From Candidatus Brocadiaceae bacterium S225 (GTDB lineage: Bacteria > Planctomycetota > Brocadiia > Brocadiales > Scalinduaceae): a stretch of 64,000 nucleotides of DNA. Shown here one piece after another: positions 25,245 through 40,558 of the stretch. The first letter of the stretch is position 1. Every line of letters begins with the position of its first letter. The notes under the pieces were generated by a model. That model was given only the letters and a program-made list of their open reading frames with translations, was not told the origin of the DNA and did not search any database. The stretch is from contig SMSL01000019.1 in assembly GCA_007859995.1 (NCBI GenBank), forward strand, positions 1-64,000, in the 5' to 3' direction. The translations under genes were made by a program, and so were the position numbers.

Positions 25245-26003
25245 ATGAGAAAATCAATATTACTTATCGTCCTTTTGATTGTAATGGCTTGTTCCTTACG
25301 GGTATATGCATCTGAATTAGACGCCACCGATATTGTTCGGCACTCTGACGATCTAATGCGTGGTGATTCTCGCTCAGGCACTTACTCTATGAAAATTATT
25401 ACCAGCCGATGGGAAAGAGAATTGACCCTACTAGTGCGCAGCCAGGGTAGAGATAAAATGTTCATTCGCATCCTCGCTCCTGCCAAAGAAGCTGGGATCG
25501 GCACCCTCCGCATAAAAAATGAAATGTGGAACTACCTGCCTAACGTTGAAAAAACTATTAAAATCCCCCCGTCCATGATGCTTCGGCCATGGATGGGAAG
25601 TGATTTTGCCAATGATGATCTTGTTAAAGAGAGCAGTATTGTCAATGACTACACACATCAAATCGTCAGTCGTGAAGATATAAACGGTGAATCTGTTTTG
25701 AAAATTGAATTTACACCAAAGCCTGATGCACCCGTTATCTGGGGAAAACTATACCACTGGGTCAGAGAAAATGATTTCGTACCTCTTAGGGAAGAATACT
25801 ATAATGAAAAAGGCAAAGCGATAAAAATCCTAGAATATTCTGATGTTGGACAGGTATCTGATCGAGTCGTTCCTCGCACGTGGACAATGAAATCGTTGAC
25901 AAACAAGGGACATTCAACAACGATTAAACTCCTTGACGTAACATACAACCAGACCATAGATAGTGCTGTTTTTTCAATGGTTCATTTAAAAAGTGTGCAA
26001 TAA
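25245..26003 (+). CDS. LolA-like outer-membrane lipoprotein-sorting protein
   Basis: 252 residues. A signal peptide is evident (ILLIVLLIVMACSLRVYASE, cleavage near residue 24). The mature part matches the LolA-like family linked to MMPL or FtsX-type exporters: DLMRGDSRSGTYSMKIIT, MWNYLPNVEKTIKIPPSMM and MGSDFANDDLVKES. Periplasmic; expected to carry a hydrophobic or lipid cargo to the outer membrane. It is first in an operon with an FtsX-type permease, a LolD-type ATPase and an outer-membrane barrel, which supports the export role. Confidence 0.85.
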   Translation: MRKSILLIVLLIVMACSLRVYASELDATDIVRHSDDLMRGDSRSGTYSMKIITSRWERELTLLVRSQGRDKMFIRILAPAKEAGIGTLRIKNEMWNYLPNVEKTIKIPPSMMLRPWMGSDFANDDLVKESSIVNDYTHQIVSREDINGESVLKIEFTPKPDAPVIWGKLYHWVRENDFVPLREEYYNEKGKAIKILEYSDVGQVSDRVVPRTWTMKSLTNKGHSTTIKLLDVTYNQTIDSAVFSMVHLKSVQ

Positions 26004-26009
26004 TAACAA

Positions 26010-27236
26010 ATGTTTACTTTTATAAAGATTGCATGGCGTAATATCATCAGGAATAAAAAACGCTCAGCCATCACACTCTCTGCAGTTGGCTTTGGCCTCG
26101 GCGCACTAATCTTTATCCGGGCATTTGTAGATGGTGCCCACCAACAGATGATAGAAAATTATACATCCTTGGTTTCTGGCCAAATACAGATACACGCCAG
26201 GGGATTTCATCAAAAAGAGCAATTAGAGATATATATCACAGAACCTGAAAAAATTTCATCTTCGCTTAAAGAAAACCCATATATACAATCATTTACATAC
26301 CGTATTAAAGCCGCAGGATTGGTAAGCTCACCAGAACACTCTGCAGGAGTTTATATTTTAGGCATTGATCCCAGACACGAAAAAAAAGTCAGTACCATAT
26401 ACAAGAAAGTTAAAGAAGGCACATTTCTAACGGAGAGTTCAGACAAGGGAATAATTTTAGGCATTCGCCTTGCCGAGAACCTGAACGTGGGTTTAGATGA
26501 AAAGATCGTTATTATGTCACAAGCGTTGGATGGAAGCATCGCTGCCGGAGCATTTCATGTTAAAGGATTGTTCGACACTGGGACAGAAGAGATAGACAAA
26601 GGCGTTGTTATCATTACACATAAAGCCGCTGAGGAGTTGTTTGTCATGCATGATAAAACATCTGAAATAGCGATACGTCTTAAAAACGTTGAGGATGCCC
26701 AAAAAGTATCAACACTCATACGTCAAAAGCTCAACTCTTCTGAGTTGGAAATTCTTCCATGGCAAGAAGTATCCACCGTTCTTGAGCAATGGATTGAATT
26801 TGACAATGGTTTTATCTATCTTATTGTCATAGTTGTTATGATCGTTGTGGCTATCGGAATTTTAAACACTGTACTTATGGGTGTCCTGGAACGAACTAGA
26901 GAATTCGGAATACTACTTGCACTGGGAACTAAACGAAAGCAAATCCTGGCGATGGTTGCGTGGGAATCCCTGTTTTTAGGTGTAATTGGAAGTCTGTTCG
27001 GATCGTTATTAGGAATCCTGCTAACCCTTCAGCTTGGAAAAACCGGAATTAATTTATCAATGTTCTCAAGTGCTTTAACTTCATTTTATATGGATCCTTA
27101 TATTTATCCCGTATCGAAAACCGACCATATTATCATCTCGATTGCGTTAGTACTCGTAACAAGTATTCTTGTCTCAATTTATCCTGCGTGGCATGCTGCA
27201 AATTTAAAACCTGTCGAAGCGATACGGAGCATTTAG
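26010..27236 (+). CDS. FtsX/MacB-type ABC permease
   Basis: 408 residues. N-terminal transmembrane segment at about 17-40 (AWRNIIRNKKRSAITLSAVGF), a large periplasmic domain (about 45-260), then three C-terminal membrane segments (about 272-295, 320-350, 370-395), the classical FtsX/MacB topology. The IRNKKR-to-membrane start and LNTVLMGVLERTREFGILLALG block are diagnostic. It starts 6 bases after the LolA-like gene. Likely extracts a lipid-anchored or hydrophobic cargo with the ATPase at 27537. Confidence 0.9.
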   Translation: MFTFIKIAWRNIIRNKKRSAITLSAVGFGLGALIFIRAFVDGAHQQMIENYTSLVSGQIQIHARGFHQKEQLEIYITEPEKISSSLKENPYIQSFTYRIKAAGLVSSPEHSAGVYILGIDPRHEKKVSTIYKKVKEGTFLTESSDKGIILGIRLAENLNVGLDEKIVIMSQALDGSIAAGAFHVKGLFDTGTEEIDKGVVIITHKAAEELFVMHDKTSEIAIRLKNVEDAQKVSTLIRQKLNSSELEILPWQEVSTVLEQWIEFDNGFIYLIVIVVMIVVAIGILNTVLMGVLERTREFGILLALGTKRKQILAMVAWESLFLGVIGSLFGSLLGILLTLQLGKTGINLSMFSSALTSFYMDPYIYPVSKTDHIIISIALVLVTSILVSIYPAWHAANLKPVEAIRSI

Positions 27237-27536
27237 GTGTAATTTAGGAATTCAGGGATTGAGAGAATTGGGGGAATTATAAAAAGTTTGAAGAGTTACC
27301 ATGCTGACAGAGCCCTTCGCTTTCTGTCATGCTAAATCCTGGCATGACAATTGGGTCGTTCCAGGGTCATCGGTTATCAATCGAAGTCCGCCCGGAAGGT
27401 GCTATTATCATATGAAGAATTTCAAAAGCAACCACGAAATAACGCGAAAAAGATATTTTAGCGTCTTTTCGTGTATTTCGCGGTTAAAAGTATTTGCCGA
27501 AGGCTTAACTTTTCAGACCATTTTTGTAGAAATTAA
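27237..27536. repeat. Intergenic region with two hairpin repeats
   Basis: About 300 non-coding bases inside the export operon. One hairpin is TGTCATGC / GCATGACA (27325-27349). A second is a long imperfect inverted repeat with arms of about 20 bases at 27430-27450 and 27466-27485 built around CGAAATA and CGAAAA. The second type recalls the CACGAAATA-rich dispersed repeats of many bacteria. They interrupt an otherwise tight gene set. Confidence 0.55.
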
Positions 27537-28211
27537 ATGTCATTAATAAAAATTAACAATTTATACAAAACATATTCCAGTGGTAAAAACATAATGACAG
27601 AGGCGCTGGGAGGTGTTAATCTCAGCATAGAAAAAGGTGACTTTACAGCTATTGCAGGACCATCCGGATCAGGGAAAAGCACGCTATTAAACCTTATTGG
27701 TGCCTTGGATTCTCCGACCAGGGGTTCCATATTTTACGAGAATATAGATATCACAAAGATCCCTTTGAACAAACTCGCCCTTTTCAGACTAGAAGAGATT
27801 GGATATGTCTTTCAGGCATACAATCTTATAAACACTTTAACTGCCATTGAAAATGTAGAATATGTCATGCTCCTTCAAGGTATCTCCAACCAGATAAGGC
27901 GGAAAAAATCTATTGAAATTCTGAAACGTGTAGGGCTGGAACCATATATTCACCGATTCCCTAATGAAATGAGCGGAGGACAGCAACAACGCGTGGCTGT
28001 CGCCAGGGCCATCGTAGCGGAACCTAAAGTCGTTATGGCTGATGAACCAACTGCGAATCTTGACTCTAAAACTGCGGAAAACTTACTGGATTTAATGAAG
28101 GAATTGAATGAAGAAAAGGGCATTACATTTGTATTCTCAACACATGATCAAATGATCATGAGTAAAGCACGGAAACTGATACTCTTGAAAGATGGAAAAA
28201 TCGCTACATGA
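27537..28211 (+). CDS. LolD-type ABC ATPase
   Basis: 224 residues with every expected motif: Walker A GPSGSGKST, Q-loop GYVFQAYNLI, signature MSGGQQQRVAVARAI, Walker B VVMADEPTANLDS and switch FSTHDQ. Size and sequence match the MacB/LolD/FtsE group that drives FtsX-type permeases; the partner is the gene at 26010. The stop overlaps the start of the barrel gene by 4 bases, so export and outer-membrane components are co-translated. Confidence 0.92.
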   Translation: MSLIKINNLYKTYSSGKNIMTEALGGVNLSIEKGDFTAIAGPSGSGKSTLLNLIGALDSPTRGSIFYENIDITKIPLNKLALFRLEEIGYVFQAYNLINTLTAIENVEYVMLLQGISNQIRRKKSIEILKRVGLEPYIHRFPNEMSGGQQQRVAVARAIVAEPKVVMADEPTANLDSKTAENLLDLMKELNEEKGITFVFSTHDQMIMSKARKLILLKDGKIAT

Positions 28212-29383
28212 AGACCCCCTTATTCATCACTGCCGTTACCATAATATTCTCACTCTTTCAATCCTGTGGCGTTTGTGAAGAAAACAAACTCAATATAGGT
28301 GGCTACTACAAGGAGCTCTTCGTATCCACAAAATCCAACGTTACTAAACAGAACTTTTTTGCCAATACGCAGCGGTTACGGTTGGAATTTAAAAAAAAAA
28401 TAGCTCCCTGGCAATTCAATTTAACAGTAGATAACGAAGTACTCAATCACGATTTTGCAGACAAACCTGACTTTGCTTTTGTCGATTCAAGAAGGCAAAA
28501 TAGAACTGCATTTCTGGACTTAGACAAAGTCACCGTAGAAAAAGATCATTTGTATATTAAGCACACTATCCATCGTGCTTCTATTAAATATTATAAATCT
28601 GACTTCCAGGCTATAATTGGAAAACAGGCGGTAGACTGGGGTAAGATGCGTTTTTACAGCCCTTTGGATATGTTCAACTCGATCAGACTTACAGACCTCG
28701 AACCAGAAGAAAGAATGGGAGTCGATGCTGTCAATCTTAACTACTCTCCCGATTCTTTCTCGGGGATAAACTTAGTATATTCACAGGGCAAAGATTCAGA
28801 AACAACCGCCGTTGGACTAAAAGGTTATTGTAAGCTTTCAACATATGATCTGTCTTTAATTGTCGCATCAGCAAATAAGCAGAAAACCGTAGGTTTCTCA
28901 TTTGACGGCTATATTAAGGATGCCGGACTCAGGGGTGAAATTTCATATTCAAAGGCACACTTTGATAATAACAGTGCCTATCCACGTATGGCAGTGGGCA
29001 TGGACTACAATTTTTCTAATACAGTATATTTACTTTTCGAACAATTTTATAATGGCGGACATGAGGAGAAAAATCCCTTTTTTTATACATTCTCCAGTCT
29101 CAGGAACAGACAGATCATCTCATTGCAAAAACATTTATCCAGCATTTTGGCAAGCTATGAATTAACGCCGCTGATTAAGCTGCAGAATACCTTCATTTAC
29201 GATTGGGATGGCAACAGTGCTTCTGTTAACCCGGAAATCAAATACAATGTACGTTCAAATGTAGATATTACTTTAGGAGCGCAAATTTATGCGGGTGGTG
29301 AAACAGAAAGTTTATTTGAAACCAGCAGCGAATTTGACGTTTACGAAAATGCATATTATTTTCAACTAAAATGGTTCTTCTAA
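28208..29383 (+). CDS. Outer-membrane beta-barrel protein
   Basis: 391 residues with a signal peptide at 1-24, many alternating amphipathic strands (such as LRLEFKKKIAPWQFNLTVDN and YYFQLKWFF) and a C-terminal Phe, the usual signal for outer-membrane assembly. The block AIIGKQAVDWGKMRFYSPLDM resembles alginate-export or DUF1302-like barrels. It follows the ABC ATPase with a 4-base overlap and is likely the outer-membrane exit or acceptor for the exporter; cargo unknown. The start of a decayed acyl-adenylating enzyme gene overlaps its last codons. Confidence 0.78.
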   Translation: MKTPLFITAVTIIFSLFQSCGVCEENKLNIGGYYKELFVSTKSNVTKQNFFANTQRLRLEFKKKIAPWQFNLTVDNEVLNHDFADKPDFAFVDSRRQNRTAFLDLDKVTVEKDHLYIKHTIHRASIKYYKSDFQAIIGKQAVDWGKMRFYSPLDMFNSIRLTDLEPEERMGVDAVNLNYSPDSFSGINLVYSQGKDSETTAVGLKGYCKLSTYDLSLIVASANKQKTVGFSFDGYIKDAGLRGEISYSKAHFDNNSAYPRMAVGMDYNFSNTVYLLFEQFYNGGHEEKNPFFYTFSSLRNRQIISLQKHLSSILASYELTPLIKLQNTFIYDWDGNSASVNPEIKYNVRSNVDITLGAQIYAGGETESLFETSSEFDVYENAYYFQLKWFF

Positions 29384-30044
29384 GAAAAAAGTTAAAAAAG
29401 ATCGAACCAATCGGCCTGCTCTCTTCCGGAGCATCCGGAACATTCTCTTTCGGCTTGAACACACAAAACGCTGTAAAAAGAAGCAGTCAATTTCTGGATA
29501 TCTTATTGGATTATTATTTCGACATTCTTGAAAACAGATCGCTTATTCTTAATTGTCTTCCGCAAGCAGTTAAAGCGTCTACTGCCGGCGTAACCGTTGC
29601 CGAAATAGGGTCACGGACTGATTCACTTATTTATCTATTGACTACACTTTCACATGAGTTTGATCAAACTATCATCATTGGAGATAATCACTTCATCAAA
29701 AACTCCATTGAAGAGGGACAAAATAAAGGAATCAACTTTAAGGAATTAAGAGTCCATCTTGTTTTGGGTGGCATTTACCTACCGGAAAATCTACGCACAT
29801 ATTTAGCCAATATTCTATGTACAGACTTTAATGATTCCAAAACTGGTTCTATTTTTTCGTCTATGGGTTTATCTGGATTGGGTTTAAATGTTTTCTTCGA
29901 AAGCAAAGAGACATTGACCTTAAGGAGATTAATGAATGAAGATCCTGTAACAAAAGAGAAGCTACTCCATGATTCGCCATTTCCTATACAAATTTCCATT
30001 TTGGAATGGGATTAGACTATGAAATGAAGTTTAAATACATCTAA
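29371..30044 (+). pseudogene. Decayed PaaK/LuxE-like adenylating enzyme
   Basis: A 214-residue open frame (29371-30015) is homologous to the middle of the intact gene at 35488: shared blocks are SSGASGTFSFGLNT against SSGFSGVFSFGMST, INFKELRVHLVLGG against IVWKGMPVSLIAGQ, and ENLRTYLANIL against ENFRLYLADLL. The first ~100 residues are missing. After residue ~207 about 150 residues are deleted, and the true C-terminal codons (GMGLDYEMKFKYI, against GMKLDYERKFTCI) survive in a different frame up to a stop at 30042-30044. So it carries an N-terminal truncation, an internal deletion and a frameshift. Confidence 0.85.
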
Positions 30045-30129: not shown

Positions 30130-31080
30130 CTATTTATTCTTTCCCGCCTTCACCCGCTTCCTACTTGCGATACCTATCATTCCTAATAGGCCTATACCAA
30201 GCAGTGCTACTGTTGTTGGTTCTGGAACGATATTGGCGTCTGCGACACCAGCACCTGAAACTAACAAATTAGGATTTCCGTCATCATTAGCAGAAAAGAC
30301 CATGTGGAAGTCGGAACCGAATTGAAGAGTATTGGTGTTATATAGACTAAGCCAAGAGCCACCTACCACATCAAGGAAAATTTCACCAGATCCATTGTTA
30401 GTGTGAAAATTAAACAGGGTGTCCAAACTTAAATCAAGCGGTCTAGCCGTAGGTATCAACGACAAAACCAATTCCCCTTCTGTAGCTCCTGTAAATGAAG
30501 ATTGACCTGTTCTACCAGCCAAACCCGTATTCATACCAGCAATATAGTCCTTAGCGAAGTCCTTGTAGATGTTAACTACTCCGCCTTTTGACAATATATT
30601 TGTCTTGCCTACCAGATTAGGATCAATCAGATAATTATCATCGAATCCGTCATACATTATGGTCAACTCATAAGTAGCTCCAAGTGCATCCTTGTCCCAT
30701 AAGATAGCTGAAGTATTAGCATCCTGAATTTGATCGACTTGGGCAACCCCCCATGAATCTTCTTTTCCGTCAGCATGTGGAGCACCAATACCTAAAACGC
30801 CAGACGAGAACTTTGTGCCGATAGCAATATCATCAGTAGCCGGAGTAAATCCACCCCAATTGGTAAAAGGTCCTTGAGTATTGGTCGAGGTATACGTACC
30901 AGCATCATCACCTGCTCCCCCATCATCTACACCATTTGGCCCAAACGTATCATAAGCGTAAGTCCTTCCCCAATCTTCAAGATCTACAATACTCCATGTG
31001 ACTGGAGTGGCTCCAATATTCCCAGTACATACGCTTCCTATACCTAGGACCAAAACAACCATTAACATTAATTTCTTCAT
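30130..31080 (-). CDS. PEP-CTERM anchored exported protein
   Basis: About 316 residues from MKKLMLMVVLVLG, with GGGGGTG just before the ATG. A signal peptide covers about 1-25. The C-terminus is a textbook PEP-CTERM tail: VPEPTTVALLGIGLLGMIG then the basic SRKRVKAGKNK. Such proteins are processed by an exosortase and sent to the envelope or extracellular matrix. The body is Gly/Asn/Asp/Thr-rich and beta-like, with no recognised enzyme domain. No exosortase gene is in the window. Upstream on the same strand are an anti-sigma/PilZ protein and an ECF sigma factor. Confidence 0.9.
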   Translation of the reverse strand: MKKLMLMVVLVLGIGSVCTGNIGATPVTWSIVDLEDWGRTYAYDTFGPNGVDDGGAGDDAGTYTSTNTQGPFTNWGGFTPATDDIAIGTKFSSGVLGIGAPHADGKEDSWGVAQVDQIQDANTSAILWDKDALGATYELTIMYDGFDDNYLIDPNLVGKTNILSKGGVVNIYKDFAKDYIAGMNTGLAGRTGQSSFTGATEGELVLSLIPTARPLDLSLDTLFNFHTNNGSGEIFLDVVGGSWLSLYNTNTLQFGSDFHMVFSANDDGNPNLLVSGAGVADANIVPEPTTVALLGIGLLGMIGIASRKRVKAGKNK

Positions 31081-31728
31081 ATCCACCCCCATTCTCATTC
31101 CTCCAAAAAGTGTTAACAATACAACCCCTTCCATATCATCTAATTTAATAGATCCATCAACAACACAATAACAATTTACCTCCTAACTCTGTAATATTTA
31201 AAATCTCTAAATTTAAAATATAACCAAGTATCGCTACAAATATGTATTTATTTTTACCATAGCTGCATACCACAATAGACAACTTTTACACCAAAATCTT
31301 GCAATAATTATTTATTTAAATGCTTATTATTAAAAACTACTACAAAATTGCAAAAAACATTCACTTTTTAGGTGCGCTATCTGAATAGGCGCAACTTTTG
31401 CTCCCAAGCAATACCAACAAAGACCTGAAAGCAATAAAATGCAGAACCATTTTCACCTACAGGCACAACGTTATGAAGCTTACTGCCGAAAATATTACAA
31501 TTCCGTAAGTTAAGAGAAATCAACTTTATATAGGCTTAAAATATAAAACGTTAGTCATATAATACGCGAAAGATAAGCGATGTCAAGATTTTTTTATATC
31601 TTTTTAGAACAAAAATGTTCTATTTTTTACGATGAAAATCGCGATAAAAAACCGTACAACAATTATTCACTCCGTACCGTTAATCCGCCTACCATTTACT
31701 GTTTTATTTCTAAGCATTCTCATACAAG
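31081..31728. other. Long AT-rich leader upstream of PEP-CTERM gene
   Basis: About 650 very AT-rich bases with no open frame worth calling. They hold the upstream region of the PEP-CTERM gene and the end of the anti-sigma gene. An ECF-type promoter may be present, but I could not pick out a reliable -35/-10 pair. Confidence 0.45.
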
Positions 31729-33038: not shown

Positions 33039-33625
33039 GTTTAATATGTGTTAGCATGTCAGTTAAGAACGCAAGATTGTTAGCAACTAGTCTCAAGAAA
33101 ACACATTATACATTTTGCTATTTTGAATAACATCAAAATAATTGCCAGGTGATTAATAATTTAACCTTTAAAATATACCAACTTTAAAAACTTATATATA
33201 AATGGTAAATTTTTATATCAATGACTTTACATGTCAAGGACAGGCCTGCACTTCAGATGGTTACGGACGCTGAAAACTCCGGTGAACTTACTAATGAAAA
33301 AACCATTTTTTTGTCGCTTCTATTGGAACGGGCGGTACGATAATGGGTGCCGGAAAAAGACTTAAGGAATTTAATCTTGGAATTCAGGCAATTGCCGCGG
33401 AACCAGAATTTCCACTTCATTGAAGGCTTGAAGCATATGGGAGTTCTATTTGTACCAGGTATTTATCATGAAAAAAAACTTGATGGAAAGATACCAACCC
33501 CACAGAAGAGTCCTATGAGATGGTAAAAAGAATTGCGATCGAAGAAGGATTATTTGTGGGACAATATTCAGGTGCGGCAATGTGGGCAGCGTTAGAGCTT
33601 GCAAAGAGTTTAGACAAAGGGCTTA

Positions 33626-34929
33626 GGAATTAAGCAAAAATAAAATCCCTAATTCTTGTGATTGTCGAGAGGAGAAATTTTATACTTCCATTCTCCATGA
33701 AACTTCGCTTTTCGTATATTTAATCTAGCCATTTCTTCATCACTAATTTTAATGCCCGTTTCATATTGATTTTGATCAAGCATTGATTTAATCTCTAATC
33801 CTTTTTGTGTTCTTGTATTTGCGATAAGATTAACAACGGTTTCTCTCGTCAATAGCGGTTTTCCACGCCAATTCTGAGAAAATATAACTAAACATTTTTA
33901 TGTTCTATCTTATTCATTTACTCGTCCCAGGGGGAAAATGACTGACATGAATTTCAACTCCCAATTCGTTTGCCAACTTCTGTAATTCCACTTTCCAAAG
34001 ACGGACCCGATATCCATTGCTTCCTCCACAATCAGCCGTTATAAGTATCTTTTTTGATTCTTGATATAAACTCCTTACCCATTTCGTACCACCATCCTCG
34101 TATGCTATTAACAGCAAATGCAGCCGTATCTCCACTAATCCCCACGCTCACCCATCCTTTATTCCGTCCAATGTCATAGACCCCATACGGAGAAACCTTA
34201 CCAAGTTTCTTGTTCATAAAATCATGGGTATTTACTTCTTCCGGCTCACCCTTGTGATTGTATTCGCAACCATTGTTTTTATAATTTCCAATATTTTCTT
34301 TCTTTTTCGTATCAACTGATACCGTAGGACAATTATCTCTTTGAAAAGTCTTCACTCGCTTATTAATGTACTTGAATTGTTTATCTCTATCAGGATGATT
34401 TGTTCCCTCCTTATCTTTTTATTTGATTGTAACGTATATCCTAAAAATATCAGTAAGTTATAAACACTCCGCTGGCTTATCTTATGCCCCTTCTTCCTCA
34501 ACGCCTCTGCCAGTTTATACGTGCTCTTTGATGTCCATCGTAATGGTGATTCCGGATCTCCTCGAGTGTTCGGGTCAACAAAATAATCCAAGTCTTTCAA
34601 TAATTCCTTATCAACGTCTTTTAACTTTTTACGCCCGCCACCTTTTTTGCGAACTCGATTGATCTCCCTATTCTCTGCATTCAACTCCGCTATACCTTTT
34701 CGTATCGTCTTATGATCTATGCCTGTACCTTCAAAGACAATAGTAATTCCTCCCCAACCAATATTTGCAGCTTCTGTAGCCGCCCATATTCTTCGCCCTT
34801 TTTCATTCAGGTATTTTGATACCTCTTTATATTTCTCCGATATCCCTTCTATAATCTGACGTCGTAGTTTTTCCACATCGCCATCTTAGCATATATCAGT
34901 ATTTATGGAAGTTATTTTTGCTTAATTCC
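33626..34929. mobile_element. ISAzo13-type insertion sequence, inactive
   Basis: 1304 bases bounded by perfect 18-bp terminal inverted repeats, GGAATTAAGCAAAAATAA at 33626-33643 and its complement at 34912-34929. TTA is duplicated on both sides (33623-33625, 34930-34932). The element carries one minus-strand transposase of ISAzo13 type, broken by several frameshifts. It sits inside the cysK pseudogene, in opposite orientation to it. Confidence 0.92.
33649..34876 (-). pseudogene. Frameshifted ISAzo13-family transposase
   Basis: The N-terminal 160 residues are intact (MEKLRRQIIEGISEKY ... KKGHKISQRSVYNLL). A frameshift follows near 34430, after LQSNKK. The next segments continue as DRDKQFKYINKRVKTFQRDN, GEPEEVNTHDF, GVYDIGRNKGWVSVG, then in a new frame ITADCGGSNGYRVRLWKVEL and HFPPGTSK, then more indels before TRETVVNLIANTRTQKGLEI and FHGEWKYKISP. 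The order matches the ISAzo13 DDE transposase. At least four indels; not functional. Confidence 0.9.
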
Positions 34930-35042
34930 TTATTGTAACCATCTTCCCATATGCAGGTGATAGGTATCTAAGTACTGTATTATGGGCTAGAATACCATAC
35001 GAGAGAAGAAAGAATACAAGAAAGGGTATCACACAAAGATGA

Positions 35043-35487: not shown

Positions 35488-36906
35488 ATGCGTCAATTGA
35501 AAAAAATATACACGGACTGGAAAAGAAATAAAATTATCAAACTCCTCACAAATTCTCCGCCTGATAAAATAAAAGCATACGGAGAAAAAAAACTAATTCC
35601 CGCTTTTAGAAGAGCAGCGACAAGGATGCCTGCTTACTCAAAACTTTTAAGTAACAATGGAATTAACTATAAAGATATTAACACCATTGAGGATTTCCAA
35701 AAAAATGTACCGGTTTTTACAAAAAAAGATTTCTTTGTCGACACATCTATGGCTGAACTATGCGTTGATAAGAACATCCAATCTTTAAAATTAGCGGTTA
35801 CCAGTTCAGGATTTTCTGGAGTTTTTTCATTTGGCATGAGCACGGCTGAGAATCAAAATCAAATTGTTTTTTCAATTGATACAATTCTAGATTATATTTT
35901 TAAGATTTCTAAAAAAAAGACCTTTTTGATTAATTGTGTCCCTATGGGTGTTAAGGTTCCTACCAGCTTACCTATAGCTGAAACCAGTGTAAGAAGCGAT
36001 ATGGCCCTGGCGATCCTTAAGAAATTCCATCCATATTTTGATCAGTTTCTTATTTTGGGTGACCCTCACTTTTTAAAAAAAATCATTGAAGAAGGCATAG
36101 AACAAGGTATAGTTTGGAAGGGTATGCCGGTAAGCCTTATTGCGGGACAAGATTGGTTCTCTGAAAACTTTCGTTTATATTTAGCAGACCTTTTAGGAAT
36201 TGACTTTAATTGTCCTGATAACGGTTTGTTTGTAGCAAACATGGGTATTGCTGAATTGGATTTGAGCCTCTTCCATGAAAGTATTTTTACCGTTCGTTTA
36301 CGTCAGGAATTACAAAAAAATGCACGTTTAAGAGAGAAGTTTTTAGGAAAAGACACAAAAATAGCTCCCCTCATCTTCCACTATTATCCACATAAAATTT
36401 TTCTTGAAACTACTCAGAGTAATGAGCTCGTTTTTACCATGCTTAACCCTGATAATTTTGTACCTTTGATTCGATATAACAGTCAAGATCAAGGTTATAT
36501 ACGATCTTATGAATTTGTCAAAAAGGTATTAACTGAAGAAGGCTACCCACATCTTATTCCAGAACTCAAACTACCTTTAGTAAGTATTGCTGGAAGAGCA
36601 GACAGGTTCATAACTGTTCATGGGAAGAATGTAACTCCTGAAGAAATCAAAGAGGGATTGTACAGTGATTTCCAAGTAGCCTCTTCAACGACAGGTTATT
36701 TCAAGTTGAGTCTCAAGAATGACAATGAAGGAAAAATTGAAATACAATTAAAAAAAGGTGTTAAACAAACGGAAAAATTAAAGAAAAAATTTACTAAGGC
36801 CCTTTTGAAATATGTAGATACCGATATCGAAATCCAATGTTACCATTACCATGATTTCCCATATGGAATGAAATTAGACTACGAAAGAAAATTCACATGC
36901 ATTTAG
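35488..36906 (+). CDS. PaaK/LuxE-like acyl-adenylating enzyme
   Basis: 472 residues, resembling phenylacetate-CoA ligase and LuxE-type acyl-protein synthetases of the ANL superfamily. The P-loop region is TSSGFSGVFSFG (about 111-122) in place of the usual TSGTTG. The later core includes DPHFLKKIIEEGIEQG, FANMG-like VANMGIAELDLS, VPLIRYNSQDQGYIR (arrangement of the A8 hinge region), AGRADRFITVHGKNVTPEEI, and C-terminal YGMKLDYERKF with the likely catalytic lysine. It should activate a carboxylate as acyl-AMP; substrate unknown. First gene of the five-gene operon, and paralogous to the decayed gene at 29371. Confidence 0.78.
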   Translation: MRQLKKIYTDWKRNKIIKLLTNSPPDKIKAYGEKKLIPAFRRAATRMPAYSKLLSNNGINYKDINTIEDFQKNVPVFTKKDFFVDTSMAELCVDKNIQSLKLAVTSSGFSGVFSFGMSTAENQNQIVFSIDTILDYIFKISKKKTFLINCVPMGVKVPTSLPIAETSVRSDMALAILKKFHPYFDQFLILGDPHFLKKIIEEGIEQGIVWKGMPVSLIAGQDWFSENFRLYLADLLGIDFNCPDNGLFVANMGIAELDLSLFHESIFTVRLRQELQKNARLREKFLGKDTKIAPLIFHYYPHKIFLETTQSNELVFTMLNPDNFVPLIRYNSQDQGYIRSYEFVKKVLTEEGYPHLIPELKLPLVSIAGRADRFITVHGKNVTPEEIKEGLYSDFQVASSTTGYFKLSLKNDNEGKIEIQLKKGVKQTEKLKKKFTKALLKYVDTDIEIQCYHYHDFPYGMKLDYERKFTCI

Positions 36907-36946
36907 AAAGGTTAGAATTTCAATTTTTAAAAAATAGGAGAATATT

Positions 36947-37843
36947 ATGGAAATTGTGAACGCGCATGTTCATATGATTGAACTGGAAAAAATGATGCAA
37001 AAAAATGCCGGTCTTAAAATCCCTGGAGGTATATCCGTTTTGCAGGATTTAGAGGCCACGCTTCCACTTCTTTCTCCACAAACCTTAATAGCACAGATGG
37101 ATGAAGCAGGTATTTCAAAATCTGTTCTTTACGCTGTGGATGCCCCTATCGTTTATGCCTCAAACGAATATGTTCAGTCCCTCTGCGCCCAGTTCCCTGA
37201 TCGTCTTATGGGATTTGCCTCCGTAAACCCTAATGGCGCGAATGCCGTTGAACGACTTGATAAGGCGATTAATGAACGGGGACTGCTTGGGCTAAAACTG
37301 CACCCCCCTTTACAAAATTTTTTCCCTAATGATGAGGCCGTTTTTCCGATTTATGAAAAGGCACTTGAACTAAAAATCCCGGTTGTATTTCATGTTGGGA
37401 CGACTCCATTTGGAAGTTTGTCGCGCCTTTCTCAGGCGAACCCTCTTCTTATAGATGATGTGTCAGTTGAATTTCCAGAATTAAGAATTATGTTAACTCA
37501 TCTCGGAACACTTGCCCACAAAGAAGCATTTATGGTGGTTGAAAAAAACCCTAATGTTTATATTGATACTTCTGCATATCTTTATGAAATTAAAGAAATC
37601 CTTACGTTGGATCTTATTACACGATTGGGGCCAAATAAAGTCATATTTGGAACTGACTATCCCATGCCATATGCCGGCGTGATCCATCAAATGAAGGATT
37701 TTGTGGAGTGTTTAAAGAACTTAGATTTAACTGAAGACGTTTTAGAAGGCATTTTTCATAAGAATTTCGAGATCTTTATGAATTATGAATCCACAGAAGA
37801 AGACCTGAATCTTGAACAAATTATCATGAACATGAAAAAATAA
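36947..37843 (+). CDS. Amidohydrolase-2 family metal-dependent hydrolase
   Basis: 298 residues, a TIM-barrel amidohydrolase of the ACMS-decarboxylase/resorcylate-decarboxylase group. Metal ligands are visible: HVH at residues 7-9, KLHPP, FHVGTTP, LTHLG and Asp in FGTDYPMPY. These enzymes hydrolyse or decarboxylate small ring compounds. AGGAGA lies ahead of the ATG, 41 bases after the adenylating enzyme. Second gene of the operon; in this setting it may hydrolyse or decarboxylate an intermediate, which is inference. Confidence 0.85.
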   Translation: MEIVNAHVHMIELEKMMQKNAGLKIPGGISVLQDLEATLPLLSPQTLIAQMDEAGISKSVLYAVDAPIVYASNEYVQSLCAQFPDRLMGFASVNPNGANAVERLDKAINERGLLGLKLHPPLQNFFPNDEAVFPIYEKALELKIPVVFHVGTTPFGSLSRLSQANPLLIDDVSVEFPELRIMLTHLGTLAHKEAFMVVEKNPNVYIDTSAYLYEIKEILTLDLITRLGPNKVIFGTDYPMPYAGVIHQMKDFVECLKNLDLTEDVLEGIFHKNFEIFMNYESTEEDLNLEQIIMNMKK

Positions 37844-37858
37844 AAAAGGAGAAATTTT

Positions 37859-38683
37859 ATGTGGTCGGATTATTACAAAAATATTGCAAACCGAAACATC
37901 GGACTTTTGAATGAAGAGCAACAGGATAAATTAAAGGGATCTTGTGTTGCTGTATGCGGAGTTGGAGGATTAGGCGGTGTGATTTCAGAAATATTAGTAC
38001 GGACTGGTATTGAGTCCATTAAATTACTTGATAATGGGAAATTTGAACCAACGAATTTGAACCGTCAGATATACTCTTTTAATGACACGAATGACCGTTA
38101 TAAAATTGATGTGACGGAAGAATATCTCAAAAAAATTAATCCTGATATTAAAATAATTAAAGAACTAGAAATTACTGAAGAAAACGTAGACAAGTTTCTT
38201 GAGGGTGTCGATGTTGTAGCCCTATCTATTGACTCTATTTTACCTGTCCTTATAATAAGCCGGGCTGCAAGAAGATTAAATATTCCTCTGGTTGAGGGTT
38301 GGGCCGTTGTTTTTGGTAATGTCAGGGTATTTACAGATCAAACCCCATCGGTGGAGGAGGTGTATAAATTCCCAACAATTGGAAGGGAGATCTCCAGCAT
38401 TATAGAAGAAGAGGCCCGAGAGTTGATGTTTCAATCTGTTTTATCTTTGCAAACAATAGACGGACTAACACAGCATTATCCTGAATCCGCCGCCAAGCGG
38501 CTTCAAGAAAAAGGCGAAGGAACAACCCTGGCCCCCATGGTTTGGATGACATGTGTGATGATGGCATTGGAAGCATTTAAGATTATTTTGAATTGGGGTA
38601 AAATTGCTTTAGCGCCTAACTTTGCAGTCTATGATGGAATTAATCATGAAATAAGGAGCCAACAGGGCAATGTCGATGGGTGA
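37859..38683 (+). CDS. ThiF/MoeB/MccB-like E1 adenylyltransferase
   Basis: 274 residues of the E1-like superfamily. The nucleotide loop GVGGLGG is at 34-40; the adenylation residues R69 in NLNRQ, K82 in DRYKID and D125 in SIDS are all present. Zinc-binding CxxC pairs of MoeB and ThiF are absent, and no obvious catalytic Cys loop follows, which is closer to MccB or TcdA than to ubiquitin-transfer E1s. It should adenylate a C-terminal carboxylate of a small protein, peptide or modified nucleoside. No ThiS/MoaD-like partner is seen in the window. Third gene of the operon, with AAGGAG before the ATG. Confidence 0.85.
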   Translation: MWSDYYKNIANRNIGLLNEEQQDKLKGSCVAVCGVGGLGGVISEILVRTGIESIKLLDNGKFEPTNLNRQIYSFNDTNDRYKIDVTEEYLKKINPDIKIIKELEITEENVDKFLEGVDVVALSIDSILPVLIISRAARRLNIPLVEGWAVVFGNVRVFTDQTPSVEEVYKFPTIGREISSIIEEEARELMFQSVLSLQTIDGLTQHYPESAAKRLQEKGEGTTLAPMVWMTCVMMALEAFKIILNWGKIALAPNFAVYDGINHEIRSQQGNVDG

Positions 38684-40022
38684 GAAAACTAATGCCGAGA
38701 AGGTCTTTTTACGTCTTCATCGCCTTGGATTAATTAGACCGTTTGTACGTTACTCTTTTCGTCTGCGTAAAGAGATCCTTCAAGGAGTCCATTACAATAC
38801 CGATATGGTGACAAACCAGATGACTTATGTTGATTTAATCACAGATTCGTTCAAGGAACGTGCCCTTCCACAACGTGATTTTCAATCCAAAAGTGCCTTC
38901 GAGTCTTCGTTTATATCCTTAGCAGATACCTTTAGTCAATTATTTGGATATCGCTACTCCCTTCCTGTTTCCCAGGGACGCAGTGCAGAGTTGATTCTGG
39001 CCAAGGTTCTTGTTAAACCTGAAATGGTTATCCCAAATAACCTTCTTTTTATATCAACTCGCTATCACCAGATATTGGCTGGGGCTAGACTCATAGAGAT
39101 ACCTGTAGTCGAAGCCTACGATCTTAATAATGACTCGCCTTTTAAAGGAAACATTGATACTGAACAATTAGAAGGAGTAATTCGGAAGCATGGGAAAGAA
39201 AAGATCCCTTATATACTGATAGAGACTGCTGTGAACGCCTCCGGAGGACACCCTGTCTCAATGGAAAATATTAAAAAGGCCCATCGTATTGCCAAAGAAC
39301 ACAACATCCCTTTAATACTAGATGCATGTAGATTGCTTGATAATGCCTGTTTGATCCGGGAAAGAGAACAAACTTATTCTCAAAAATCACTTAAAGAGAT
39401 TGTCTTAGAGTTCTGCTCATACACAGATGGTTGTGTGATGAGTGCGTCAAAAAATTATTATGTTGATACCGGAGGGTTTATTGCAACTAATAACGAACAA
39501 CTACATAATCAGTTTATGGATGTTGTTATGGTGTATGGAGATGGGCTTTCAGTTAGGGCTAAGGGAAAACTAAATGCGGCCATCCAATACCCATTCAAAA
39601 ATGAACGCATTATTAATGACCGCGTAAATAAATCATTTTATCTGTGGAAAAAACTTGAAGAAGCGGGTGTTCCTGTCGTTAGACCTTCTGCTGGATGTGC
39701 AGTTTTTATAGATACACATCAACTTTCCGAATACATCGCCCCTGATCAATTTCCTGAGAAATCCTTCCTTGTCCATCTTTATCTGAAATCAGGTATTCTC
39801 GGTAGTGAGAATTTGATAACAACAGGGCAAGATGAGAAGGGAATCAGCATGTTACGGTTTGCAATACCGTTAAAAAGCTATAATGTTCGTCATATGAACT
39901 ATGTTGCAAAACATATTATCCAGACATGGGAAGAGAGAAAACAAATAAAAGGGCTGAAAAAGATTTACGCAGCTCCATGTCAAAGCGGAAAATTTCTTGC
40001 CCAATACCAGATTATTGAATAA
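38670..40022 (+). CDS. Tryptophanase/tyrosine phenol-lyase-like PLP enzyme
   Basis: 450 residues, fold type I, matching the beta-eliminating lyase family: SQGR (101-104), VNASGGHPVSM (188-198), LDACRLLDNA (217-226) and the PLP lysine K261 in SASKNYYVDTGG. The order and spacing follow tryptophanase, which makes it a C-S or C-C lyase or a relative acting on an aromatic or sulfur amino acid. The aromatic substrate pocket cannot be read from sequence. It overlaps the E1-like gene by 14 bases and ends one base into the next start, so the genes are co-translated. Confidence 0.85.
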   Translation: MSMGEKTNAEKVFLRLHRLGLIRPFVRYSFRLRKEILQGVHYNTDMVTNQMTYVDLITDSFKERALPQRDFQSKSAFESSFISLADTFSQLFGYRYSLPVSQGRSAELILAKVLVKPEMVIPNNLLFISTRYHQILAGARLIEIPVVEAYDLNNDSPFKGNIDTEQLEGVIRKHGKEKIPYILIETAVNASGGHPVSMENIKKAHRIAKEHNIPLILDACRLLDNACLIREREQTYSQKSLKEIVLEFCSYTDGCVMSASKNYYVDTGGFIATNNEQLHNQFMDVVMVYGDGLSVRAKGKLNAAIQYPFKNERIINDRVNKSFYLWKKLEEAGVPVVRPSAGCAVFIDTHQLSEYIAPDQFPEKSFLVHLYLKSGILGSENLITTGQDEKGISMLRFAIPLKSYNVRHMNYVAKHIIQTWEERKQIKGLKKIYAAPCQSGKFLAQYQIIE

Positions 40023-40558
40023 TGGATATTTTATTGAAATTTAAGGAAAAACTCCCTCTTGTTCGAGAGTGGGTTGATGAAACCGTTGCTCAATACCAGA
40101 ATGAGGCAAGGACTACGAGCAGTTACTCCCTTCGTAATTTATCCCAATATTTTTTAGAAGAAACTCTTAGTTCAGCAAAAATTGTTGAAATGGACAAAGT
40201 TCCTGTCCCTCCCCTATCTTCTATAGGAATTTCAGAATTAGTTAATTTCGAGAAAGATCCTAAAGAGTATGATGGCATTACTTTACTAAACACATGTTTT
40301 CTTCGAAAGGTCGCTGCAAAAAGACCTGAGCTACATTTCCATGAACTTGTGCATATTGTCCAGTGGCAAATTTTAGGTGTTGATACATTCTTAATGGTCT
40401 ATGGCATAGGGCTATTGAAATTTGGATATTGGAAAAGCCCCTTAGAAGTGATGGCACGAAAATATACAGATCTCTTTCAGGAAAATGAACCTGTCTTCAA
40501 CGTTGAAACTCTTGTCAGATCCGAAGTAAATGAATTATTAGCTCTTCTTAAACTCTAA
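40022..40558 (+). CDS. Small HExxH metalloprotein (zincin-like)
   Basis: 178 residues, no recognised family. Residues 107-111 are HELVH, followed by IVQWQILG, and E142 in SPLEVMARKY about 30 residues later is a good third metal ligand, the gluzincin pattern. There is no signal peptide or membrane segment, so it is likely a cytoplasmic metallopeptidase. Its ATG overlaps the stop of the PLP gene by one base, so it is part of the operon. A peptidase in this setting hints at processing of a peptide substrate, which is inference. Confidence 0.7.
   Translation: MDILLKFKEKLPLVREWVDETVAQYQNEARTTSSYSLRNLSQYFLEETLSSAKIVEMDKVPVPPLSSIGISELVNFEKDPKEYDGITLLNTCFLRKVAAKRPELHFHELVHIVQWQILGVDTFLMVYGIGLLKFGYWKSPLEVMARKYTDLFQENEPVFNVETLVRSEVNELLALLKL

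Follow-up and report, generated by a model that had tools for sequence, protein, structure and literature searches.

Several bacterial ThiF-family proteins have been reported to act on N-acyl amino acids. According to the passages of PMC10404671 and PMC12856293 that deal with them, TyzB, a ThiF homologue of M. tuberculosis, and TrzS, a fusion of ThiF and flavin oxidase from the same species, carry out the ATP-dependent formation of oxazolones from N-acyl amino acids, and the P. rubra fusion protein OxzB likewise cyclises N-acyl amino acids to oxazolones. In Stieleria, genes for an N-acyl amino acid synthase (NAS), a ThiF protein and a nitroreductase have been proposed for the stieleriacines (passages of PMC7293339 and PMC12479983), and a PEP-CTERM gene is described in one stieleriacine cluster (passage of PMC7293339); the role of this ThiF is called enigmatic in the relevant passage of PMC12479983, because no oxazolone was seen there. 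NAS genes have also been linked with PEP-CTERM/exosortase genes (Craig, Cherry and Brady 2011, as cited in passages of PMC7293339 and PMC12078418), and in passages of one review that names PEP-CTERM, anammox and Scalindua together, PEP-CTERM and Scalindua occur in the reference list. Here we describe a five-gene operon (positions 35488 to 40558) of the anammox-lineage planctomycete Candidatus Brocadiaceae bacterium S225, found in the first 64,000 nucleotides of contig SMSL01000019.1 (assembly GCA_007859995.1), the stretch that we call the window. We propose, with about even confidence, that the operon serves carboxylate activation and tailoring in an N-acyl amino acid (lipoamino acid) pathway, and that a gene block lying upstream is predicted to carry the product to the cell surface. 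The proposal is based on gene content, conservation, neighbouring genes, invariant ATP- and metal-site residues, and the co-occurrence of a NAS-like gene in two genomes.

The Operon and Its Conservation in Brocadiales

The operon consists of the following genes:

35488-36906, plus strand: gene 1, PaaK/LuxE-like adenylate-forming ligase of 472 amino acids (open reading frame (ORF), family profile)
36947-37843, plus strand: gene 2, Amidohydrolase-2 (AH2) TIM-barrel enzyme of 298 amino acids (Pfam Amidohydro_2)
37859-38683, plus strand: gene 3, E1/ThiF-family adenylyltransferase of 274 amino acids (Pfam ThiF)
38670-40022, plus strand: gene 4, pyridoxal phosphate (PLP)-dependent enzyme of the beta-eliminating-lyase fold, 450 amino acids (Pfam Beta_elim_lyase)
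40022-40558, plus strand: gene 5, small HExxH...E predicted metallopeptidase (zincin) of 178 amino acids (invariant motif)

Successive genes are separated by a 40-base and a 15-base gap and then overlap by 14 bases and by 1 base, which bears out the packed layout given in the original prediction except for its first gap, put there at 41 bases. The families assigned at that time have also held for all five genes, by Pfam matches above the cut-off for genes 2 to 4 (Amidohydro_2, 134.3 bits with a cut-off of 26.4; ThiF, 136.6; Beta_elim_lyase, 159.2), by a PaaK/LuxE profile for gene 1 and by the HExxH motif for gene 5, genes 1 and 5 having no match in the Pfam scan.

Conservation in the order was followed in 62 genomes, including that of the window (G000). 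The PaaK-like protein was found in two of them, G000 and a genome of the same genus (G345, operon locus L020). ThiF matches occur in 61 of the 62 genomes, those above 61 bits being confined to the same two (605 and 557 bits). The order of PaaK, AH2, E1 and PLP enzyme is kept in G345, with identities of 74, 83, 90 and 87%, inside flanks that differ from those of the window, and dN/dS (the ratio of nonsynonymous to synonymous substitution rates) is 0.07-0.14 for these four genes between the two copies, indicating that they are real genes. On this evidence genes 1 to 4 travel as a unit, without the zincin, which is absent from G345. The five genes as one fixed set were for this reason rejected, as well as because a relative of the PLP enzyme (30% identity) is present in only one of 23 genomes carrying a PaaK-like gene.

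About 0.9 kb downstream of the G345 operon lies a gene for a FeeM-like N-acyltransferase (NAS-like), which passes neither the TIGR03694 nor the Pfam FeeM cut-off (26.4 bits for the latter, cut-off 27). Its relative in G000, 62% identical, is above the FeeM cut-off (36.6 bits) and fails TIGR03694 (21.0 bits, cut-off 111.95). Relatives of this gene were seen in none of the other 60 genomes, in which other NAS families were not searched for, so that the two genomes holding it are the same two that hold the PaaK-like gene. A broken NAS relative is present upstream of the G345 operon, and a B12-type radical SAM gene, not found at the window operon, lies directly upstream of it (L020, 6732-8174). 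G345 also has a second NAS cluster (L204, 5854-13809), with a NAS, an MMPL transporter, a LolA-like protein, a barrel-like protein and, as judged by eye, proteins resembling an acyl carrier protein and a radical-SAM enzyme.

The E1 Protein

The residues GxGGxG, D58, N66/N68, R69, K82 and D125, to which we ascribe ATP-site roles, are invariant in the E1, and its predicted structure (predicted local distance difference test score, pLDDT, 93) has the fold common to MoeB, ThiF and MccB. In a tree of E1 sequences the clade of the window protein (support 100/98) is joined at 96/81 to 19 ThiF rows retrieved as PRK14851 hits; all eight long ones among these carry a nitroreductase domain (seven above the cut-off) and the two short ones tested pass PRK08223. 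On the other side of the tree stand E1s of the MoeB/ThiF and TcdA types, as judged from the 8 of 24 rows tested, while L190, a long branch entered with this set, was placed on the PRK14851 side. The tree is midpoint-rooted and has no published OxzB, TyzB or TrzS among its rows; the L020 E1 was entered twice, and fusion proteins were trimmed to their domains at estimated boundaries. On this tree the window E1 appears to group with PRK08223/PRK14851-type ThiF proteins, apart from MoeB/TcdA-type E1s. The NCBIfam model PRK14852 is matched both by the NAS of a Planctomycetales locus, L036 (8-198), and by the window E1 (308-433), and so joins the two in one model. Nine of 19 and four of 12 loci of the PRK14851 side have a NAS gene within about 1.5 kb of the ThiF gene, and none of 18 ordinary Brocadiales E1s does.

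The MoeB/ThiF/MccB fold, together with a PLP lyase and a HExxH protein in the operon, could also be read as ubiquitin-like sulfur transfer or as maturation of a ribosomally synthesized and post-translationally modified peptide, in which the E1 would adenylate the C-terminus of a small protein or peptide, the PLP enzyme would deliver sulfur and the zincin would cleave a leader. The features of ThiF/MoeB sulfur transfer are missing in two respects. In the E1 clade (24 rows) none of the alignment columns with at least 95% conservation holds a Cys, the three Cys of the window protein being shared by 46-54% of rows, in line with the earlier description of an E1 lacking zinc cysteines. In seven loci, some of them cut by contig ends, no conserved small ORF was seen up to 2.5 kb from the E1, and the matches between such ORFs were at chance level (best E 0.03). 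The PLP enzyme and the zincin, moreover, were not seen in the other loci that combine PaaK, E1 and AH2. Nothing was found in favour of sulfur release or a peptide substrate, both of which had been suggested originally, and we give this explanation little probability.

The PaaK-Like Ligase, the Amidohydrolase and the Lineage-Specific Genes

Judged by its sequence, gene 1 is a distant ANL/PaaK-like relative within a conserved family of about 475 amino acids. The family profile matches PaaK (4r1l, E=2e-11) and LuxE (7xc6, E=5e-5), pointing to the ANL fold that it has in common with phenylacetate-CoA ligase and LuxE. It differs from both in its altered ATP loop (SSGFSG; SSGxSG in 36 of 54 alignment rows), in the lack of an invariant Cys, and in scores far under the cut-offs of the curated NCBIfam PaaK models (35.2 and 28.5 bits, with cut-offs of 700 and 646). 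Cys is found in at least 30% of the rows only at alignment columns 92, 150 and 293, and a catalytic Cys of the LuxE type, which we would expect near the C-terminus, is absent from the alignment.

The metal site of the AH2 is complete: H7, H9, H149, H185 and D237, which we take to be the HxH/H/H/D ligands, are invariant in all seven aligned AH2 proteins from PaaK loci. The AH2 family includes lactonases and decarboxylases, and the operon enzyme shows ACMSD-like homology.

Gene 4 passes NCBIfam PRK13238 of the tryptophanase subfamily (323.9 bits, cut-off 285) and fails TIGR02618 (311 bits, cut-off 720.7). When aligned to 1c7g, with numbering assigned by hand, it keeps the equivalents of tyrosine phenol-lyase K257, D214 and R217, presumably the PLP residues, and of R404, presumably the carboxylate Arg, and has F, I and N at Y71, T124 and R381, which we take to be the phenol-site residues. 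By this alignment gene 4 is a diverged relative of tyrosine phenol-lyase and tryptophanase, and, since cofactor and carboxylate residues are kept and the phenol site is changed, its substrate is probably an amino acid carrying a better leaving group. Matches to it occur in 8 of the 62 Brocadiales genomes, above 38% identity only in G000 and G345. Taken together, the PaaK, ACMSD-like and tyrosine phenol-lyase homologies might suggest a pathway in which a small aromatic or ring compound is catabolised or handled as a CoA thioester, with a PaaK-type CoA ligase, an AH2 decarboxylase or lactonase, a lyase and an E1 in a side activity. The operon has, however, no ring-cleavage or CoA-handling gene, the presumed phenol-site residues have been lost, and the PaaK family stands beside NAS in most scored loci; such a pathway seems to us distinctly improbable.

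In gene 5, H107-E108-xx-H111 and E142 are invariant across 32 aligned relatives, and the protein is predicted to be a gluzincin-type metallopeptidase. Its model is mostly helical (pLDDT 92.7), and no close solved structural relative was found. Two zincin relatives in other planctomycetes stand apart from any such operon. P0006 (84%) and P0122 (86%), which are zincin and PaaK matches, lie on contigs of 9753 bases each, and one other assembly may therefore hold the two genes together.

Distribution of PaaK Loci and Their Neighbours

Relatives of gene 1 numbered 284 in a database search and 89 in a collection of 84,980 species genomes, from which 79 loci were kept. An E1 of the window type is present in five of them (L028, L032, L036, L041, L048) and an AH2 in six (L028, L032, L033, where it is an end piece, L034, L036, L048), so that PaaK, E1 and AH2 stand together in four loci: L028 and L048 of Omnitrophota, L032 of Bacteroidales and L036 of Planctomycetales. 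The L072 E1, 27% identical and about 9 kb from its PaaK, falls in the window-type cluster and was left out. The E1-bearing loci are clustered in the PaaK tree and do not form a single clade (4 changes, where shuffling gave 6.8 and only one of 500 shuffles went this low; 54 loci were used, with L102 alone kept from the more distant L071-L106). In addition, among the best-listed matches (120 of 284 for PaaK, 119 of 2711 for E1, 20 of 225 for the zincin), PaaK and E1 have 19 contig sizes in common, against a mean of 0.6 (maximum 3) in 200 shifted controls. The suggestion that the operon is a single system is thus supported for four genes in this lineage and for three across phyla; it does not extend to the zincin, and among the genomes searched the PLP enzyme is tied to it only in G000 and G345.

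Neighbour genes were clustered by BLAST thresholds, each cluster being named from one representative. With L020 added to the 79 fetched loci, a FeeM-type NAS was found within 500 bp of PaaK in 47 of 80 and anywhere in the fetched stretch in 58 of 80; the 14 loci without a NAS cluster member and the 8 without a PaaK cluster member were counted as misses, L020 being one of the 14 because its NAS-like gene is too distant for clustering. Half of eight sampled NAS-like proteins pass the TIGR03694 cut-off, and others among those tested pass Pfam FeeM only. Counting the window, 30 of the 81 loci hold a gene from one of three clusters, whose representatives are a PEP-CTERM protein and, from the XrtA system, the TPR protein PrsT and the sugar transferase EpsB_2. 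A protein of about 900 amino acids with AMP-binding, carrier and PlsC-type acyltransferase domains also recurs beside NAS, in L028 (1494-4190), L042, L048 and further Omnitrophota.

An Export Block Upstream of the Operon

The original prediction overlooked a block at 25245-30043 that seems to belong with the operon in one wider system. It is listed here with the surface-protein gene that follows it:

25245-26003, plus strand: LolA-like periplasmic carrier (PF17131 LolA_like, 181 bits; 49-64% identical to genes of Omnitrophota PaaK loci)
26010-27236, plus strand: FtsX/MacB-type permease (PF02687, 77.5 bits; PF12704, 50.6 bits; 47-66% identical in Omnitrophota loci)
27537-28211, plus strand: ABC ATPase (PF00005, 116 bits; 53-75% identical in Omnitrophota loci)
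28208-29383, plus strand: predicted outer-membrane barrel protein (no Pfam match; 33-50% identical beside Omnitrophota PaaK)
29371-30043, plus strand: decayed second PaaK copy (tblastn; middle part, corresponding to intact-copy residues about 102-286, and the last 20 or so residues out of frame)
30130-31134, minus strand: PEP-CTERM surface protein, between export block and operon (TIGR02595, 23.4 bits, cut-off 16)

In L028, L039 and L042, all of Omnitrophota, PaaK ends a run of LolA-like, FtsX, ABC and barrel genes, with NAS upstream on the other strand; in L048, which is similar, no ABC ORF was called, and E1 and AH2 precede PaaK. Among 12 further Omnitrophota loci all four export genes are found in seven (PaaK precedes them in L140 and L150), a NAS-like gene in ten (in L143 at 29%) and an E1 or AH2 in none. 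The window block lies about 6 kb upstream of the operon, with the decayed PaaK at the place that PaaK takes in Omnitrophota; a direct repeat of 52 nucleotides (29992-30043 and 36854-36905, 75%) links the decayed to the intact copy. As the same four export genes are present and a decayed PaaK occupies its place, the block and the operon at 35488 would most simply be parts of a single system in which the first copy of the ligase has decayed. Elsewhere in the 62 Brocadiales genomes the barrel protein has only short, weak matches, in G345.

The PEP-CTERM protein is weakly similar to the flocculation-associated PepA (36.9 bits, cut-off 80). Between its gene and the operon there is a decayed insertion element (33625-34930) with 28-nucleotide inverted ends (89%) and, by eye, broken minus-strand transposase-like ORFs. 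At its left end stops a plus-strand relic (about 33280-33633) whose translation, again by eye, resembles a cysteine-synthase-type PLP enzyme in its C-terminal part.

Proposed Pathway and Its Alternatives

In the proposed pathway, the PaaK-like ligase would form an acyl-adenylate, its substrate being the fatty acid supplied to NAS or else the N-acyl amino acid. The E1 would adenylate the N-acyl amino acid at its free carboxylate, and the amide oxygen would then close an oxazolone (azlactone), as for TyzB, TrzS and OxzB; the AH2 may open, trim or otherwise process the activated ring, taking the place of the flavin oxidase. In this lineage the PLP enzyme might supply or trim the amino acid, with the zincin as a putative accessory, and the LolA/FtsX/ABC/outer-membrane-barrel block is predicted to bring the product to the cell surface. 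The earlier ideas of two activated carboxylates and of a modified amino acid both fit the NAS context.

Several observations weigh against this pathway. The NAS candidate of the window genome sits on another contig, none being found in the window, and NAS is rarer close to E1-bearing PaaKs, being within 4 kb of PaaK in 1 of 7 E1 loci versus 34 of 45 loci that lack both E1 and AH2. Both points would also fit E1 and PaaK acting in an independent pathway, the NAS and export neighbours reflecting shared genomic islands only. Against such independence, PaaK, E1, AH2 and the export block occur together in L028 and, with no called ABC ORF, in L048, NAS being present in both, and PaaK and NAS-like genes co-occur in the same 2 of the 62 Brocadiales genomes; we consider it highly improbable. 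The PLP enzyme and the zincin, being lineage-specific, also count against the proposed lipoamino acid pathway, as does the lack of a nitroreductase, flavin oxidase or desaturase partner, none of which was fused to the E1, beside the operon or among the ORFs scanned in E1 loci. This last point also speaks for another reading, in which the E1 and PaaK activate the N-acyl amino acid not to close a ring but to let it be joined, as an ester or amide, to an acceptor at the surface, either exopolysaccharide or PEP-CTERM protein. Transfer of this kind would suit the PEP-CTERM, PrsT and EpsB_2 neighbours, the exosortase present in L048 and the PEP-CTERM gene between the export block and the operon of the window. 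No transferase gene, however, is common to all E1 loci; apart from the PlsC-type domain of the protein of about 900 residues in L028 and L048, no candidate was seen, and the nearest E1 relatives are cyclase-like, which leaves surface transfer rather unlikely.

More speculatively, E1/PaaK-activated N-acyl amino acids that are opened by the AH2 rather than desaturated, exported by the Lol-like block and attached to a PEP-CTERM/exopolysaccharide surface might together make up a widespread surface-lipid system, a picture that we regard as quite unlikely in this full form. Such a system would put a bacterial E1 to work in the lipid chemistry of anammox and candidate-phylum bacteria. The pathway proposed above, if true, would be a lipoamino acid pathway in an anammox lineage.

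Comparison with Described Systems

The pathway proposed here would share with OxzAB, TyzACB and TrzAS an N-acyltransferase and the ATP-dependent activation of a carboxylate by a ThiF-family protein, and the window E1 appears to group with a ThiF type that is in part fused to nitroreductase, as OxzB and TrzS are. It differs from these systems in that the window operon has PaaK, AH2, PLP enzyme and zincin genes and an upstream export block, and no nitroreductase or flavin oxidase partner was seen. Since the flavin-oxidase partner was looked for and not encountered, no membership in the oxazolone family is claimed, and the locus is most readily classed with the NAS-linked lipid pathways, as a variant of these. 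The stieleriacine clusters are likewise planctomycete, with NAS genes, a ThiF-family gene and PEP-CTERM/exopolysaccharide surroundings; they have a methyltransferase and a nitroreductase, and PaaK, AH2 and PLP genes are not named in the passages of PMC7293339 and PMC12479983 that describe them. With the NAS-PEP-CTERM/exosortase system, compared here through papers citing the 2011 study, the PaaK loci have in common NAS beside PEP-CTERM/exosortase genes. NAS has so far been tied to that system without a clear role; to this association the present locus adds, in several phyla, a recurrent PaaK-like ligase, a LolA/FtsX/ABC/barrel export block and an optional E1 and AH2 module, by which the role of NAS becomes a question for enzyme assays.

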